Shown here: one piece after another, positions 7,103-25,726 of the stretch | Layout of the letters: every line of letters begins with the position of its first letter | Position numbering within the stretch: position 1 is the stretch's first letter | Origin: a virus | Virus record (IMG/VR): IMGVR_UViG_3300033153_007126 | Location: 1 to 30,757 of that record | Strand: one strand, 5' to 3' | DNA: 30,757 nt | Notes under the pieces: generated by a model | Told to the model about the DNA's origin: nothing | The model's database searches: none | Seen by the model: the letters and a program-made list of their open reading frames with translations, nothing else | Program-made: the position numbers and the translations under genes

Positions 7103-7303
7103 CTACCTAGCCCCAGACCTAGCCCCAGACCTAGACCAAGACCTAGACCAAGACCTAGACCTAGACCAAGACCAAGACCTAAAACTAGACCAAGACCCAG
7201 ACCTAGACCCAGACCTAGACCTAGACCCAGACCTAGACCCAGACCTAGACCTAGACCCAGACCTAGACCTATCATGTCCCTCTCTAAGTAAAGCTTGTGT
7301 CAT
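7103..7303 (-). CDS. Ser/Arg/Gly/Trp dipeptide-repeat protein
   Basis: 66 residues: a short unique N-terminus (MTQALLREGHDRS), then an almost perfect alternation of Ser with Arg, Gly or Trp to the end (GARSGAR). Its start overlaps the stop of the 116-residue gene upstream on the same strand (ATGA), so it should be translated by coupling. The DNA is a hexamer array NGGTCT with only the first base changing (A gives Arg, G Gly, T Trp). Low-complexity followers of this kind have been seen beside similar small proteins in other genomes (recollection). Function unknown; it could be a non-functional expansion. Confidence 0.5.
   Translation of the reverse strand: MTQALLREGHDRSRSGSRSRSGSRSGSRSRSGSRSGSWSSFRSWSWSRSRSWSRSWSRSGARSGAR
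7107..7270. repeat. hexanucleotide tandem array
   Basis: About 27 units of AGACCn on the plus strand (n = T, C or A), with a single interruption CCTAAAACT near 7190. The unit is exactly two codons, so slippage would change the length of the minus-strand repeat protein without breaking the frame. Confidence 0.9.
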
Positions 7304-14228: not shown

Positions 14229-14571
14229 ATAGAAATTCAGGATATAAAACTAAAAACAACTGTCTTTTAAGCCGATAAGTGGCTTCTTTGGCGGTTATAG
14301 CACTCTTAACATCTTCAACCACCCATTTGTCAACCTCTTTGTATTTAAAGTCAGCAATATACTTTCTAGCTAGTAGCTTCCTATTAGTTTTAGGATCTCT
14401 AACACTCTCAACAATTTTAAACTCTGGTTGCAATGAAAGATCTGTTATTTTTCCAGCTCTTAATAGCAGTTTTAATTCTAAATACCGTCTGGCTTCTTTT
14501 CGTGAGTCAAACATAAACCCATCTATTTTAGTTTTTTTGTTTTTATATTTAGTGTTTGATTGGTAGCTCAT
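14215..14571 (-). CDS. DUF1064 family protein (putative nuclease-like)
   Basis: 118 residues from ATG 14571. SRKEARRYLELKLLLRAGKI, LSLQPEFKIVES, KYIADFKY and WVVEDVKSAITAKEATYRLK match the DUF1064 pattern (E in the first helix, then D...F.Y....VEDVK), a fold related to small endonucleases. An upstream in-frame extension to 14700 is rejected because it lies inside terL. It overlaps the terL end by 23 bases. In phages this family is found near packaging and recombination genes. Start: weak SD AAAGAA. Confidence 0.75.
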   Translation of the reverse strand: MSYQSNTKYKNKKTKIDGFMFDSRKEARRYLELKLLLRAGKITDLSLQPEFKIVESVRDPKTNRKLLARKYIADFKYKEVDKWVVEDVKSAITAKEATYRLKRQLFLVLYPEFLFREV

Positions 14572-15873
14572 TGACTGTTCTTTCGTTGAATTTTGGACGG
14601 TGTACAGGCATAATTTTACAAACTTTATATCTAAAATTATCCGTGCGATCATCAATAGCAGGGTGAGTCTTAAACTTTTCAGGCTTTCCCGTCTTCTCAT
14701 CCCATGAGTGCTGTTCTAATGCTTCAGTATGTTGAGGGCATTGTTTCACATTAACATACCATCTTTTCTTTTCAAAGGCATTATTAACAGCATTAACACT
14801 ATCCATAATATCAGGGTTTGATCTATCCATAATGACCTCTAAAAAAACACCTCTCTCTTTAGCGGTATCTTTGAGTATTTGAATATCTGATTTAGAGGCA
14901 CTTGTTTTTCTACTGTCTCCACTTGCATCTGGGTATATAAATATTCTATGTTTACCGTATTTTTCGCATAAGGCATAAGCCATTTCTCTGGTATCGTAAC
15001 TGCTCATCTCTTCAACTAAGTGAAAGGTTTGACCTCTTTGAACACTAATTGAGTTTACAGAACCACCGATGTTAAAGTCAGCTCCGATGTGTAGATCTTC
15101 ATAGTAATCTTCATATTTGATAATCTTTTCATCACTTCCATTTATGTTTCTATTGAAATATTTATAGACATTACCACTTGTAAGATTAACGAAATCGCCA
15201 TCTAAATATGCTCTTAGTAGGTTTTCAGGGTACATTTCTTTTAATGTTTCTATAAAGTCAGGTGGTAAATATTTATTATCGGTGGTCTTAGCTTTTATTA
15301 ACCGTTTACTTTCACTGGGTTCTTTTACAAATATTTGATAAGTTGCTTTATATCCCTCTGGAGTGGTTGTTATTATGAATTGTCTAACATTTCCAGCTCT
15401 TAACCTGCCTAAAAGCTTTTGAAATGCCTTGTAAGCAAGATCTTTTTTAGAAGTATCGAACTCATCACAAATTATCCAAGCTGCATTTATTCCTACCAGT
15501 CTTTCGTAGTTTTCCATCGACTTACATATTATTTTAGTTTCTACTCCGTTAATATCTAAGAAGAAAATACTATCGGCTGCATTAAAACGATACTGAACCC
15601 CCCACTCTTCTAATGCTAGTTTCATCTCAGGGATAAAAATATCTCTTAGCATAGGGTAGTTAGGTTCTGTTGCTATTCCAACCTCTCCGGGGTTTAAAAA
15701 AGATAATTGTATAGCCTTTCTACAAGCTACATAAGTTTTACCATTTCCAGTCAGCCATACCCACCGACTAAACCAATAATCTTAGTAGTTGTATCTGCTA
15801 ATAGTTCATACTGATGATTTAATAATTTAACCGTTTGGGTATGGGGTAATCCTCCTTTTTCAAGTTTAGACAA
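14549..15873 (-). CDS. terL: terminase large subunit, frame broken at Walker A
   Basis: Two frames together make one protein. Frame one starts at TTG 15873 (SD AAGGA) and reads SKLEKGGLPHTQTVKLLNHQ and on to KIIGLVGGYG before TGA 15751-15753. Frame two, a -1 shift away, picks up at once with LTGNGKTYVACRKAIQLSFL and runs to 14549; from its first ATG (15652) it has 367 residues. Walker B is AAWIICDEFD, the coupling motif ITTTPEG, and the RNase H-like nuclease has HIGADFNIGG, IFIYPDASGDS and HPAIDDRTDNFRY. It packages DNA with TerS. The break falls between GGYG and GNGKT. Confidence 0.82.
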
Positions 15874-16522
15874 AATAATAATCCTTGTAGTCTTCTAATG
15901 TTACTCTTCTTTTAAGATATTTAAAACTTACTCCAATATCTTTGGAAGCCTTGTTTATTGATTTATAAACTATTCCTCCTATAGATACTTTTGTACCGCC
16001 TTTGTATAAATGGTTATCTTTATTCTGCTTATTTGTGACACTTCTTTTTCTGCTTATCTCTAGTAACTCTTCTTTTGTTTTATCAAGATAATAGTTTCCT
16101 CCAGCATAAGAGTTTTTCTCTTTTAAGCCACTTGCTAATTTTTCTCTACCTTTTGCCCCCATCTTTTTATTTCTTCTTATGATAGATTTTCTCATCTTAT
16201 CTCTGTACTCCTGCGAACACTCTCCAGTTTTTAACCAGTGGTTATCACTCATTTTCTTTTTAATTTCAGAAGATTTGCTAATTTCTAAAGAGTTCTTAAA
16301 AGTATGCTTATAAGGGCTATGATTTATATACCCATGTTCTCTAGCCAGGTTAGCTTCTTTTTCAGTTGCTTCATCTATTGTTAAGTAGCCACAAAATAAT
16401 ATTTTATGCTTATTCTGTTTACCGTATTTTCTTTGATTATCTAAAAATCTTTTTGATGGGCTTATTGTACAACCTATCTTAATATCCCTAAGATGGTATA
16501 TGTAGAACTTGTGTTTTTTCAT
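15866..16522 (-). CDS. GIY-YIG-type homing endonuclease between terS and terL
   Basis: 218 residues from ATG 16522 (SD AAAAGG); the longer ORF start at 16585 lacks support. N-terminal FYIYHLRDIKIGCTISPSKR, with a later EATEKEANLAREH, is a degenerate GIY-YIG core (IY...KIG, R, E). The middle is Lys-rich with HWLKTGECSQEYRDKMRKSI and SYAGGNYY, as in NUMOD-containing nucleases. The end SIGGIVYKSINKASKDIGVS is an IENR1/NUMOD1-like DNA-binding element. Its last codons overlap the terL start. It interrupts the terS-terL pair, as mobile endonucleases do. Confidence 0.78.
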   Translation of the reverse strand: MKKHKFYIYHLRDIKIGCTISPSKRFLDNQRKYGKQNKHKILFCGYLTIDEATEKEANLAREHGYINHSPYKHTFKNSLEISKSSEIKKKMSDNHWLKTGECSQEYRDKMRKSIIRRNKKMGAKGREKLASGLKEKNSYAGGNYYLDKTKEELLEISRKRSVTNKQNKDNHLYKGGTKVSIGGIVYKSINKASKDIGVSFKYLKRRVTLEDYKDYYFV

Positions 16523-16594
16523 TTTATGCCTTTTATGCCTATATTTAGAGGGGAGCAACCCCCTCAGGCATTCTGTATTATACATCTATTTGCT

Positions 16595-17104
16595 TTAATC
16601 ATCTCTAACTATGTTTATGGTTGTAGGTAGTTTATTTTCGTTGTTTTGTTGAACTGCGATGTTTGTGTTGGCGTGTCTTTGGTTTACTCCAAGAGTTAAA
16701 GAAAGTCTATCTAATGAATCAGCTATAAATTTAAGCTCTTGTGGGTTAAGTTCTAAATCTACGGGCTTATCATTTATTATTGTTGTTGTTCCATCGAGAG
16801 AATCGTTTAATTTTTCTGCTAATTTATCCCCTATTCCATAAACAAGCTTTTTTCTTCTAATGCTTTCGTCTGCAACCTCATCGGCACAAAGGATTGACTG
16901 TTGATTTTCTGTTGATTTTTTTTCAGCAATAATTTCACGAGCCTTTATATAGTCACCATTCCTTTGGTGTTGCCATTGTTGATTTTTTGCTTTCTTTGAT
17001 ATGGTGCTTCTATCTATACCTGTTTTGTCTTTTATTTGTGAAAGGGTAAGCCCTGCCTCATAGTAACCTTTGGCTTTACCCCATAACTCTTTAGATATAG
17101 CCAT
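16595..17104 (-). CDS. terS: terminase small subunit
   Basis: 169 residues. An N-terminal helix-turn-helix (LTLSQIKDKTGIDRSTISKK, about residues 19-38) recognises the packaging site; the central helices (VADESIRRKKLVYGIGDKLA) would oligomerise; the C-terminal tail is Asn/Gln-rich. Such architecture and the place upstream of terL define the role. Start codon overlaps the upstream stop (TAATG). Confidence 0.75.
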   Translation of the reverse strand: MAISKELWGKAKGYYEAGLTLSQIKDKTGIDRSTISKKAKNQQWQHQRNGDYIKAREIIAEKKSTENQQSILCADEVADESIRRKKLVYGIGDKLAEKLNDSLDGTTTIINDKPVDLELNPQELKFIADSLDRLSLTLGVNQRHANTNIAVQQNNENKLPTTINIVRDD

Positions 17105-17523
17105 TATTTTCTATTCTTTCTCAATTTCTCTATGCTTTCGCTGCTTAATTCAAACCACTCTCCGACCATTCTATGTTTTTTATATCTTTTGTGTATTTTT
17201 CTTTCTACTTCATAAGCATTTTCTTTATAAAAAGAGTCTATTAATTTTAATCTATATGGATTACCTACTTGTATCCCTCTAATTCTACTTATTGGATCGT
17301 CTGCAACACCTATTTTAAAAATATCAGTATTTTCCATTTGGATAATATAAATCATTGATCCTTTTTTGGATAAGTTGCTTTTTCCATTATTCCATTTTTT
17401 TACATTCTCCGACATACTTGCTTTGCTAATGCTGAATTTTAGACATAATTCCGATTGGCTATAAATCCCTAATTCAAACTCTTCCTTTATTTTTTCCCAA
17501 TTGTATTTAGATGGTCTACCCAT
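17104..17523 (-). CDS. HTH plus T5orf172/GIY-YIG fusion protein
   Basis: 139 residues. Residues 1-47 form a TerS-like helix-turn-helix (SQSELCLKFSISKASMSENV). Residues 56-130 carry a T5orf172/MUG113-type GIY-YIG domain: MIYIIQMEN, FKIGVADDPISRIRGIQVGN, EVERKIHKRYKKHRMVGEWF. All the usual catalytic-type residues of that family (Y, R, E) are visible. Its stop overlaps the terS start. It could be a mobile nuclease that picked up a terS-like DNA-binding domain; the N-terminal likeness to terS is the odd part. Confidence 0.72.
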   Translation of the reverse strand: MGRPSKYNWEKIKEEFELGIYSQSELCLKFSISKASMSENVKKWNNGKSNLSKKGSMIYIIQMENTDIFKIGVADDPISRIRGIQVGNPYRLKLIDSFYKENAYEVERKIHKRYKKHRMVGEWFELSSESIEKLRKNRK

Positions 17524-23528: not shown

Positions 23529-23539
23529 GTTTAATTTAG

Positions 23540-23621
23540 TATAATTACAATAAGACCTTTAAAAAGGCAAGGATTTAGCTCTTTTAAAAGCAAGAGCGAC
23601 CTACTTTAACTTAGGAGTAGG
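23540..23621 (+). promoter_or_regulatory. promoter and three-hairpin leader
   Basis: TATAAT at 23540-23545, predicted start near 23552. The leader then has hairpins CCTTT/AAAGG-like (23556-23567), GCTCTT (23578-23583)/AAGAGC (23592-23597), and CCTACT (23600-23605)/AGTAGG (23616-23621). The last hides part of the SD AGGAG (23613-23617). Confidence 0.45.
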
Positions 23622-23623
23622 AA

Positions 23624-24001
23624 ATGATACCAATTTATAGAGCAAAGGAATTAAAAAAAGACAATTATGTGATTGGTAGTTACATTGAAAATAGTATAGA
23701 TTGTCCTTGTATTGTAGATATGGATGCAGAGCAATACGAAATAGATAAAACAACTTTGAGTATATCATTTAAAGATATGTTAGACAAAGACAATAAAAAG
23801 ATATTTGCTAGTTTAGACTACATTGGTGGGGTAGGGGGAGATATCCTTTTTTATGAAAAAGAATACGAAAACTATACGGCAGAATTTTCAACAAGTGGCT
23901 TTATGCTGTATGAATATCTTGATGGAAAAAGCATTAAAAACACTATCATAAGAGGTATAGGAAGTATAAGAGATTTTGTAGTAAAAGGAATCCAAAAATA
24001 A
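23624..24001 (+). CDS. YopX-like phage protein
   Basis: 125 residues. IPIYRAKELKKDNYVIGSYI, YEIDKTTLSISFKDMLDKDN followed by KKIFASLDYIGGVGGDIL follow the YopX-type order (R-x-K ... G-S-Y ... I-D-x-x-T-L ... D-x-x-x-K-x-I-F). It would then be the second such gene in the window, on the other arm. Function unknown. Confidence 0.65.
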   Translation: MIPIYRAKELKKDNYVIGSYIENSIDCPCIVDMDAEQYEIDKTTLSISFKDMLDKDNKKIFASLDYIGGVGGDILFYEKEYENYTAEFSTSGFMLYEYLDGKSIKNTIIRGIGSIRDFVVKGIQK

Positions 24002-24015
24002 CTAAGGAGTAGGAA

Positions 24016-24213
24016 ATGAGTCACAGCAAAGAAATATTAAATCATTTAGAAAACGGTAACAAAATCACTGCATTAGAAGCTTTGAATCTTTTTGGGTGCT
24101 TTCGTTTGGGTGCTAGAATTTACGATCTTAAGAAGTTAGGGCATGAGATTGAAAGCGATATGATAAAAATACCGAGCGGTAAAATGGTTGCTGAGTATAG
24201 TTTAAAGGTTTAG
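24016..24213 (+). CDS. small helix-turn-helix protein (HTH_39-like)
   Basis: 65 residues. KEILNHLENGNKITALEALN, CFRLGARIYDLKKLGHEIES: the I-L-x-x-L-x-x-G-x-x-I-T-x-x-E-A-L ... R-L-x-x-R-I-x-x-L-x-x-x-G pattern is the HTH_39 family found in phage genomes, likely DNA binding. Its SD region (AACTAAGGAGTAGGAAATGA) nearly repeats that of the preceding gene. Confidence 0.7.
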   Translation: MSHSKEILNHLENGNKITALEALNLFGCFRLGARIYDLKKLGHEIESDMIKIPSGKMVAEYSLKV

Positions 24214-24221
24214 TAACTCTA

Positions 24222-24230
24222 TGGTATAAT
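24222..24230 (+). promoter_or_regulatory. extended -10 promoter of structured segment
   Basis: TGGTATAAT lies eight bases after the HTH gene stop. Predicted start near 24237. What follows is about 195 bases without a normal gene. Confidence 0.6.
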
Positions 24231-24242
24231 ACAAACAACAAC

Positions 24243-24277
24243 ACCCAACCACATCTTGAAGTGTGCAAAAGTTGGGT
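24243..24277 (+). ncRNA. 5' hairpin of the structured segment
   Basis: ACCCAAC (24243-24249) pairs with GTTGGGT (24271-24277), with an inner CACA/TGTG stem (24250-24253 with 24262-24265), and TTTT directly after. It could be a transcription terminator making a short RNA of about 45 bases, or a 5' stabiliser. Confidence 0.45.
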
Positions 24278-24309
24278 TTTGAGTTATTTTAAAATGAACT
24301 TTTAAATCA

Positions 24310-24404
24310 GCATCACTGAGACCCTATCACCCCGTCTCTTGATGGGGTGCTGGTTTAAGAGTTTATATCAAGGGGTCTTAGTGATGCAAAACCCCACTCT
24401 TAAA
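24310..24404 (+). ncRNA. structured RNA candidate with competing long stems
   Basis: Stem A is 15 bp with one G-T: GCATCACTGAGACCC (24310-24324) with GGGTCTTAGTGATGC (24373-24387). Inside it is a 9-bp hairpin CACCCCGTC-TCTT-GATGGGGTG (24328-24349). Stem B, TTTAAGAGT (24354-24362) with ACTCTTAAA (24396-24404), interleaves with A as in a pseudoknot. A third pairing, GGGGT (24372-24376) with ACCCC (24391-24395), competes with A. It ends 28 bases before the nuclease ATG. No known RNA family recognised. Confidence 0.55.
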
Positions 24405-24432
24405 ATTATTGTCAATCATCGAAAGATTTAAA

Positions 24433-25020
24433 ATGTATTTAGAAGTATGCTTAGAAGAATTAGAGCAGAAAGAGTTATATTTTAAGCTAAATGATATTTT
24501 TTGCTTAGAGAAAGAGGGGAAAGTTGCAGGAATTTATGCAATTTTTAAAGAAGATATTTGTTTGTATGTCGGACAATCTCAAAATGTAGCAAGTAGAATC
24601 GCTACCCACTTAAAAGGCAAGTACGAAACAGCCTCAGATATATACATATGGGACATTAAGGACTGTGGATTTGATAGTTTTTTTGAAAAGTCTAAAGAAT
24701 CACAAAAAGCAATTTTAATAAATGCAGAAAATTGGATGTTTAAACAATTAAAACCTATTGAAAATCTTGCTATTGATTTTAATATAATTATCCCAAAAAA
24801 ACAACAACCTGATATAGATTTAGAGTATATTCCAAGTATTAGCATTATCCTTAAAGAGCCTTATGAGACTGTAATCTATACAGAACTGCCAGAAGAAAAT
24901 ATAATAAATATTGATTATTTGCATTGTGTCGAAATACTAGATGATGAAACACATAACAAGGTTTTAGACATCATAAAAGTAAAAAACTTTTGTTCAAAAG
25001 GATACAAAAATGAGTATTAA
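24433..25020 (+). CDS. GIY-YIG nuclease
   Basis: 195 residues from ATG 24433 (a TTG at 24409 would add eight). The GIY-YIG domain is at about residues 28-110: GIYAIFKEDICLYVGQSQNV, ASRIATHLKG, and the metal-binding Glu in NAENWMFKQLKPIENLA. The C-terminal 85 residues are acidic and of no known type. It overlaps the replication initiator gene by 11 bases and follows a structured RNA-like leader. It may be a homing nuclease or part of the phage's attack on host DNA. Confidence 0.82.
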   Translation: MYLEVCLEELEQKELYFKLNDIFCLEKEGKVAGIYAIFKEDICLYVGQSQNVASRIATHLKGKYETASDIYIWDIKDCGFDSFFEKSKESQKAILINAENWMFKQLKPIENLAIDFNIIIPKKQQPDIDLEYIPSISIILKEPYETVIYTELPEENIINIDYLHCVEILDDETHNKVLDIIKVKNFCSKGYKNEY

Positions 25021-25726
25021 ATTTATGGCAAGAGTGTGGAAAGAGGAAAGTCTATCTAGTAATCAAAAACTAATAATGTTGTCAATATCCGACAATGCAA
25101 ATGACGAGGGAGTATGTTATCCCTCAGTAGATAATATACAGAAAAAGACTTGTTTGTCAAGACCTACGGTAATAAAAATAGTTAAAGAGTTAGAATCAAA
25201 AAACTATCTTATGATCCACAAAAGAGCTAGAAAAAAAGGCGGTAGATATTCAAATTTATATCTTGTTTTTCCATCTGAAACATTAGAAAACTTAGATGAT
25301 GAATACAGAGAAAAATTTAGCCAAAGTAAAGAGGCTTTACTATACCCCCAAAGTAAAGAGGCTTTACCACAAAATGATAGCCAAAGTAAAGAGGCTTTAC
25401 CTAAACCATCACTTACTTTATTTAACCATCACTTATTTAAAGAAATGAATAGTGAGGAAAAAGAATTATTTTTAGAGTATTTAAAAGTAAGAACAAAATT
25501 AAAACTTGTTACTACTTATTCAATACAAGATAGATTGTTAAAAAAATATTTTGAGTTTGGCAGGACAATAGATATTCTAGAGAACGCAATAAATAGCAGT
25601 TGGAGAGATTTTTATAAACCTAAACAGCAATACAACCCAAAGCAACCAAAAGAGTCTCTTGGTGATGTGGCTAGAAGATTACACGAAAATTCCAACATAG
25701 AAGAAGCGGAGGTGCTACATGGATAA
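25010..25726 (+). CDS. replication initiator (lambda O-like, N-terminal winged helix)
   Basis: 238 residues. The N-terminal winged helix (MARVWKEESLSSNQKLIMLS, CYPSVDNIQKKTCLSRPTVI, VKELESKNYLMIHKRARKKG) is of the HTH_36 type. Then a linker with three copies of QSKEAL (about residues 105-128), encoded by DNA iterons, then a C-terminal DnaD-like helical region (FLEYLKVRTKLKLVTTYSIQ, IDILENAINSSWRDFYKP). It should bind the iterons and recruit helicase via the next gene. SD: AAAAGG. Confidence 0.78.
   Translation: MSIKFMARVWKEESLSSNQKLIMLSISDNANDEGVCYPSVDNIQKKTCLSRPTVIKIVKELESKNYLMIHKRARKKGGRYSNLYLVFPSETLENLDDEYREKFSQSKEALLYPQSKEALPQNDSQSKEALPKPSLTLFNHHLFKEMNSEEKELFLEYLKVRTKLKLVTTYSIQDRLLKKYFEFGRTIDILENAINSSWRDFYKPKQQYNPKQPKESLGDVARRLHENSNIEEAEVLHG
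25321..25400 (+). other. origin of replication: three iterons with dyads
   Basis: CCAAAGTAAAGAGGCTTTAC occurs exactly at 25321-25340, 25348-25367 and 25381-25400. Each carries the dyad GTAAAG-AGG-CTTTAC. It is inside the initiator gene, as with lambda ori inside O. Iteron binding by the initiator is inferred. Confidence 0.75.
25404..25440 (+). repeat. A+T-rich direct repeats next to iterons (putative unwinding element)
   Basis: AACCATCACTTA occurs at 25404-25415 and 25424-25435, inside an A+T-rich tract. It sits directly after the third iteron, where an origin unwinding region would be. Confidence 0.6.

Follow-up and report, generated by a model that had tools for sequence, protein, structure and literature searches.

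A putative structured leader RNA ahead of a phage replication operon and its possible antisense-type pairing

Gene context and promoter

The window, i.e. the whole stretch of DNA that was analysed, corresponds to a single linear virus record (30,757 bases) with genes for tail, portal and head proteins, terminase, Sak annealing protein and SSB. Within it, a structured segment (24222-24432) is located between a winged-HTH gene and a GIY-YIG nuclease gene, the latter being followed in the operon by the gene of an O-like replication initiator (Table 1). The nuclease most likely starts at ATG 24433, which is preceded by GAAAG, while TTG 24409 is also possible. A first-pass annotation of this DNA had stated that the segment is not explained by any gene, and indeed it is free of open reading frames, except for the 5' end of the nuclease frame in case of a start at TTG 24409. 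The TGnTATAAT promoter proposed in the same annotation is found with its TG at 24222-24223 and TATAAT at 24225-24230, and a -35-like TTTAAA lies 18 bases further upstream. While the match is good, its kind is not rare in such a stretch (10 matches found compared with 8.3 expected), and it is convincing because of its place directly ahead of the leader.

Table 1 Features of the putative leader and its neighbouring genes (positions in the window)
Feature	Position	Strand	Remarks
Winged-HTH (HTH_39) gene	24016..24213	+	directly upstream of the segment
Promoter match, sigma-70-type	24201..24230	+	TTTAAA, 18 nt, extended -10 TGGTATAAT; 10/12 matches, TG before -10
First leader hairpin	24239..24281	+	CAACACCCAAC / GTTGGGTTTTG, arms 24239-24249/24271-24281; inner CACA/TGTG; short T run
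seqA	24298..24306	+	ACTTTTAAA; seqB complement with one G-U (together with the preceding base, 10 pairs in a row)
Outer A+T helix, 5' strand	24300..24308	+	TTTTAAATC; pairs with the start-codon region
Main stem (P1), 5' strand	24310..24324	+	partner 24373-24387
Inner hairpin (P2)	24328..24349	+	9 bp, TCTT loop; arms 24328-24336/24341-24349
seqB	24354..24362	+	TTTAAGAGT; exposed in main-stem loop; complementary to seqC and, less strongly, to seqA
Main stem, 3' strand	24373..24387	+	5' end with G24372 = GGGGT, alternative partner ACCCC 24391-24395
ACCCC and seqC	24391..24404	+	seqC is ACTCTTAAA; 3' partners of GGGGT and seqB
Outer helix, 3' strand	24425..24433	+	GATTTAAAA; extends over the first nucleotide of the probable nuclease AUG
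GIY-YIG nuclease gene	24433..25020	+	PF01541, 6e-6; 38% identical to L199 protein
O-like replication initiator gene	25010..25726	+	next operon gene; phrog_678, 6e-20

Further features of the window were observed outside the segment. Another promoter-like TATAAT with a hairpin-rich leader occurs at 23530-23624, where a CCTAC/GTAGG pairing can cover the Shine-Dalgarno sequence of the 23624 gene, and the start context AGGAGTAGGAAATG is common to this gene and the next one. A stretch of the HTH gene (24092-24108) holding the TTTGGGTGCT repeat is complementary to the 5' end of the predicted leader transcript at 24232-24248 (17 nt, 82%). On the minus strand, a long GGTCTA/GGTCTG/GGTCTT hexamer array (7121-7290) just beyond the end of the 7300-7650 gene displays the second-lowest folding z in the window. 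Also on the minus strand, the terminase large-subunit ORF (14549-17523) apparently lacks the N-terminal part of the ATPase domain. Its neighbours are an ORF resembling homing endonucleases (phrog_314) and a T5orf172 ORF, and the terminase gene may be a split one. Within the O-like gene, three near-identical in-frame repeats (QSKEAL) are found at 25320-25402, and repeats of this type are present as well in the O genes of the related phages L002, L003, L199 and L121. By analogy with lambda O, these repeats are likely to be origin iterons.

Pairings and folding of the leader

All pairings listed in the first-pass annotation were located where it had placed them or within one base. The leader begins with the described hairpin carrying a T run, which is terminator-like, yet a terminator scan gave it no terminator score. 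Downstream, the 15-bp stem enclosing a 9-bp tetraloop hairpin is present as well, the main stem consisting of 14 Watson-Crick pairs plus one G-U and the inner hairpin of eight Watson-Crick pairs plus one G-U. Between seqB and seqC, the 9-bp stem B (24354-24362/24396-24404) is formed by nine of nine perfect pairs and interleaves with the main stem, as had been claimed. Stem B alone is less remarkable, nine pairs being reached in 3% of 3'-flank shuffles. In combination with the GGGGT 24372-24376/ACCCC 24391-24395 pairing, which exists as described in competition with the main stem, it yields an alternative helix of -16.0 kcal/mol that is equalled by 0.5% of shuffled flanks. The pairing of seqB with the upstream seqA (10 pairs including one G-U) is equalled in 1.4% of shuffles.

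The amount of pairing had been called striking, and comparison with shuffled controls, a check proposed in the first-pass annotation, bears this out: the segment folds at -63 kcal/mol compared with a shuffled mean of -41 (z -5.13), with 0 of 200 shuffles reaching as low an energy, and its z is the lowest of the window (-6.06) in a scan of 766 stretches on both strands. The description of the stems as mutually exclusive applies only in part to the window, where the main hairpin (-46.2 kcal/mol) is far more stable than any fold containing stem B (-32.0 kcal/mol), a gap of about 14 kcal/mol. With linkers of 10 and 8 nt, the main hairpin and stem B could also coexist as a pseudoknot.

As to RNA versus DNA, all non-Watson-Crick pairs in P1 and P2 of the window, in both stems of the probable homologue L127 and in the stem of the related L003 leader (both described below) are G-U on the plus strand, and none is A-C. 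Moreover, the plus strand folds at -60.8 kcal/mol compared with -50.7 kcal/mol for the minus strand. These plus-strand wobbles and the better folding of the plus strand point to a transcript running in the direction of the nuclease and O genes rather than to a DNA element. A function at the DNA level, be it as replication-origin structure, as recombination or integration site or as protein-bound cruciform, would suit the neighbourhood of the O-like gene and the fact that long inverted repeats can act as DNA. It is nevertheless very unlikely in view of the wobbles restricted to one strand, the better folding of that same strand, the position immediately behind a promoter and the placement of the likely origin iterons within the O gene itself (the three repeats around 25320-25402).

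A probable homologue in a Sulfurimonadaceae prophage

A covariance model was built on the window copy alone and run over 424 kb of related loci. Besides the window itself, the best match was obtained at L127:10219-10345 (E 0.0096 for 424 kb) in a Sulfurimonadaceae genome stretch that had been chosen for its distant O-like gene, and whose context is that of a Sulfurimonadaceae prophage. The matched element ends 117 nt before the start of the O-like gene, which is followed by an integrase-like gene, and the O protein encoded there is only 25% identical to the O-like protein of the window. The element comprises a 14-bp main stem and an 8-bp tetraloop hairpin positioned as in the window; its loop contains GAGTGTTTATAAGGGGT, and a run of CCC occurs in its 3' flank. 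In addition, the loop can pair with RNA just upstream, at the place of the seqA pairing of the window, in a 14-pair helix including two G-U pairs, which was equalled in 0 of 2000 shuffles.

Compensatory changes in relatives had been named in the first-pass annotation as a check on the structure, and this check is passed with one homologue. In L127, both partners differ from the window at 18 of 41 modelled pairs versus 9.2 in shuffles, a figure to be read as that of a single homologue whose alignment was fitted to the model itself. Nine of them fall into the main stem (16 pairs modelled) and five into the inner hairpin (of nine), giving 14 compensatory pairs in the two main stems, while the other four belong to the outer helix; in slid versions of the alignment, the paired fraction drops to about 40%. 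The L127 element is a probable syntenic homologue of the window leader. Covariance models R1 and R2 returned no member beyond L127 from 397 and 228 genomes plus 1.4 Mb of loci; weaker matches were set aside, as their neighbours are unrelated genes.

Database searches gave no further relatives. No Rfam family, c4 (RF01695) included, was matched by the window or the related loci. Since matches were lacking, membership of the c4 family was dropped, likewise the reading as an Rfam riboswitch or ribozyme, the tRNA-like reading and a group I intron with GIY-YIG endonuclease, for which no Rfam intron match appeared even at E 10. Searches of annotated phages for DNA or protein related to the element or the nuclease were negative, viral contigs yielded no relatives by single-protein or pattern queries, and the 228 Sulfurimonadaceae genomes contained no relatives of the nuclease.

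The same pairing plan in other phage leaders

Several leaders ahead of early genes of other phages follow the same plan, in which the loop of a long stem is complementary to the RNA immediately 3' of that stem. The closest relative of the window is L199 (O 65% and nuclease 38% identical), which has the same HTH/GIY-YIG/O gene order. Its first leader (1668-1865), located before the HTH gene, is the clearest example of the plan: a TATAAT promoter and a hairpin with T6 are accompanied by a 20-bp perfect stem and an interleaved loop-to-flank helix of 14 pairs, a value reached in 0 of 2000 shuffles. The sequence of this leader is unrelated to that of the window, and an upstream complement of the seqA type is absent from it. 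A second leader of L199, before the nuclease, has a second promoter, and its loop can form 8-9 bp with RNA downstream. In L003, an O relative (56%), an 18-bp stem and about 13 loop-flank pairs are found immediately before the O start. The loop CCTCCTCAG of L121/L019 pairs with CTGAGGAGG in the Shine-Dalgarno region of O, 12 loop-to-flank pairs of L201 include the AAGGA of its gene, and leaders of similar plan occur in L126/L021, L120, L034, L095 and L061. Both conformers are nearly equal in energy in the first leader of L199 and in L121, and the seqB/seqC fold is favoured in L201 and the second leader of L199.

A fixed descriptor of the plan, shaped with the help of three of the six independent leaders that it retrieves, gave seven matches (six independent) in 5236 phage and mobile-element leaders versus 0.4 expected from dinucleotide shuffles, the scan being restricted to intergenic leaders. 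Chromosomal control leaders gave none in 1619 (0.275 expected). The window itself matches the strict descriptor only with a start at TTG 24409, since 28 nt separate its 3' partner from ATG 24433. Unrestricted scans were not specific (35 matches versus 28.4 expected and 33 versus 18.75), chromosomal controls matching at an equal rate via spurious ORFs; only the scan restricted to intergenic leaders separates phage from control. Likewise, a blind three-part search for seqA, seqB and seqC over the loci was not enriched (18 versus 13.3 in shuffles; 7 versus 3.7 for the chromosome), so that seqA is taken as suggestive in such A+T-rich sequence.

These counts are relevant to the view that the leader is nothing but a 5' hairpin stabilising the mRNA, its loop complementarity having arisen by chance in A+T-rich sequence. 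The frequency of stem B alone in shuffles (3%) and the lack of enrichment in the three-part test would agree with it, yet helices of 12-14 loop-to-flank pairs in L199 and L201 and the six leaders found against 0.4 expected render it unlikely.

A more serious alternative, and the strongest of the rivals, is that the leader covers a ribosome site. According to this explanation, it would be a plain translational block in cis that hides the ribosome site of the nuclease without any antisense action in trans, the nuclease being made from certain transcripts only. In a fold of 24238-24500, the AUG region is indeed largely paired, the AUG residing in the 9-bp A+T helix 24300-24308/24425-24433, and in L121, L120, L126 and L201 the 3' partner falls on the Shine-Dalgarno region. 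Precedents exist in I-TevI, mobE and segB, for which RNA structures have been shown or implicated in reducing translation (PMC3014915). On the other hand, the outer helix consists of just nine A+T-rich pairs, the GAAAG bases are mostly unpaired in the ensemble except for the last one, and the L127 element ends more than 100 nt before the O start, so that cover of the start codon is not conserved. On balance, a plain block of this kind is doubtful.

Not every relative carries such a leader. A structured leader is absent from the nuclease homologue of L279 (z 0.03), and the L120 gene has relatives with a different leader. Relatives of the L061 gene are mostly without the leader in question, so that they supplied no alignable family for covariation. 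Other arrangements were observed alongside. L130, L131 and L132 share a 112-aa gene with L129, yet the leader of this gene is built quite differently in them, the AAAAAGGAG ribosome site being covered by a stem of long range. In the Bacteroidetes-type phage L144, two hairpins precede a replication-type gene (2400-2503) and could kiss via their loops GTGGAG/CTCCAC, the stem/flank pseudoknot being absent. Upstream of O, three related phages (L003 4198-5022, L002 3049-3837 and L204 around 2240-2380) possess genes with GGRAS/GGRAC-type ends that resemble the variable proteins of diversity-generating retroelements.

Genes presumably served by the element

The first-pass annotation had suggested a cis-acting switch controlling the nuclease. 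A cis-acting RNA control element is supported by the promoter match, the wobbles, the folding, the L127 homologue and the recurrence of the plan, but the focus on the nuclease is not: in L127, L003 and L121, the downstream gene is an O-like initiator and a nuclease is absent. Hence, the element belongs to the replication operon, of which the GIY-YIG gene is one member. The same comparison affects the idea that the RNA is a partner of the GIY-YIG nuclease, either guide or substrate, in the manner of omega RNA for IscB. What prompts this idea is the position of a roughly 200-nt structured RNA immediately before a nuclease gene, but the homologue and the similar leaders precede non-nuclease genes (O-like, HTH_39 and others), no Rfam family is matched and the L279 nuclease homologue has no such RNA, which leaves this idea with hardly any probability.

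Comparison with known systems

The closest functional parallel is the CI RNA of P4, which is processed from a leader, pairs with seqA upstream and seqC downstream, leading to premature termination, and keeps the replication genes off in the lysogenic state (PMC4825925). As in P4, the window features a predicted phage replication-operon leader behind its own promoter (promoter match, element, GIY-YIG and O-like genes) and a hairpin segment with a complement downstream and, more tentatively, another upstream, arranged in the same order: a seqA-like sequence at 24298-24306, the hairpin 24310-24387 with seqB, and seqC at 24396-24404. In contrast, a sequence relation to CI is not detectable, the seqA of the window is weak, and P4 is a satellite phage of enterobacteria.

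The c4 RNA of P1/P7 is released from a longer transcript by RNase P, and its loops pair with the ribosome site of its target (PMC5320573). The window would share with it the embedding in one transcript upstream of the target, and it has a comparable stem with further hairpins inside; among the similar leaders, L121, L120, L126 and L201 also have the loop pairing at or near a ribosome site. Differences concern the missing match to the c4 model, the c4 target, which is an antirepressor operon, and the pairing site of the window, which ends 28 nt before ATG 24433, away from the ribosome site, while being 4 nt ahead of the less likely TTG 24409. The element is accordingly not assigned to c4 or any other family; what is proposed is that it works like CI/c4-type leaders.

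Other leaders are similar in part. The IsrK leader of Gifsy-1 also combines a promoter, a short terminator-like RNA and a structured leader of an early prophage operon, but Gifsy-1 controls an antirepressor gene, and its likeness to the window is one of layout. The leaders of the homing endonucleases I-TevI, mobE and segB likewise place RNA structure before a nuclease gene, with the start codon in a predicted helix, whereas the element of the window is far larger and interleaved, and its relatives have it before non-nuclease genes. The T4 gene 32 leader is pseudoknot-capable, belongs to a phage replication gene and lies upstream of an A+U-rich start region as in the window; it is, however, a compact two-stem pseudoknot bound by the product of its own gene, while no binding protein is known here.

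Finally, the put RNAs suggest a different mode of action, in which the leader would bind the emerging RNA polymerase and cause terminators to be ignored across the early operon. The location of the leader immediately behind the promoter that opens an early operon, and its series of stem-loops, agree with this, and HK022 putL is similarly located just downstream of its promoter (PMC9378689). However, put RNAs are about 70 nt long and consist of two bulged stems with conserved, common sequence, none of which is matched by the window, and leaders sharing a plan without sharing sequence are ill suited to one conserved polymerase contact. A put-like function is therefore quite improbable.

Proposed mechanism and significance

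The favoured reading, to which a probability of roughly 45% is given, is that the segment is a replication-operon leader RNA, made from its own promoter and regulating by self-complementary antisense-type pairing in the style of P4 CI and P1 c4. It is based on the promoter match, the structure, the strand, the probable homologue and the recurring plan. Weighing against it are the lack of any Rfam match, the unenriched three-part search, the 28 nt between seqC and the likely AUG, the energy gap in favour of the main hairpin, the single probable homologue with its distant O protein, the use of three of the six leaders in shaping the descriptor and the unstructured leader of the L279 nuclease homologue. 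The leader transcript would be produced from the promoter at 24201-24230, ahead of the GIY-YIG nuclease gene and then the O-like initiator gene. Its hairpin 24310-24387 would hold out seqB, complementary to seqC downstream and less strongly to seqA upstream, and, either in cis or after processing in trans, might pair via seqB with leader RNA. Such pairing may lower expression of the operon by blocking ribosome access or by early termination. Since the main hairpin is strongly favoured in the window, seqB would serve as a loop offered for pairing, within a pseudoknot or in trans, instead of forming one side of an evenly poised switch. Confidence is lowest for transcription, for pairing in vivo and for the direction of regulation. 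A role in superinfection immunity is conceivable, but no integrase was found among the open reading frames inspected in this fragment, so that a need for immunity is unproven.

What is known of P4 CI/P1 c4-type RNA control over phage replication genes comes from a handful of enterobacterial models plus a single covariance model of c4 type. More speculatively, and with considerable doubt, phages of Campylobacterota and others may possess a large, fast-evolving class of early-operon leader RNAs that preserve the pairing plan while their sequences diverge. Their loop/flank complementarity would serve as a variable antisense code by which replication genes are switched off and related phages are divided into immunity groups. 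Leaders that keep their plan while changing every base would escape sequence or covariance searches. Such RNA control may thus be far more widespread than annotations suggest, the present case concerning phages of sulfur oxidisers of the Sulfurimonas type, and a swappable loop/flank pair, if true, would be a simple basis for phage incompatibility.
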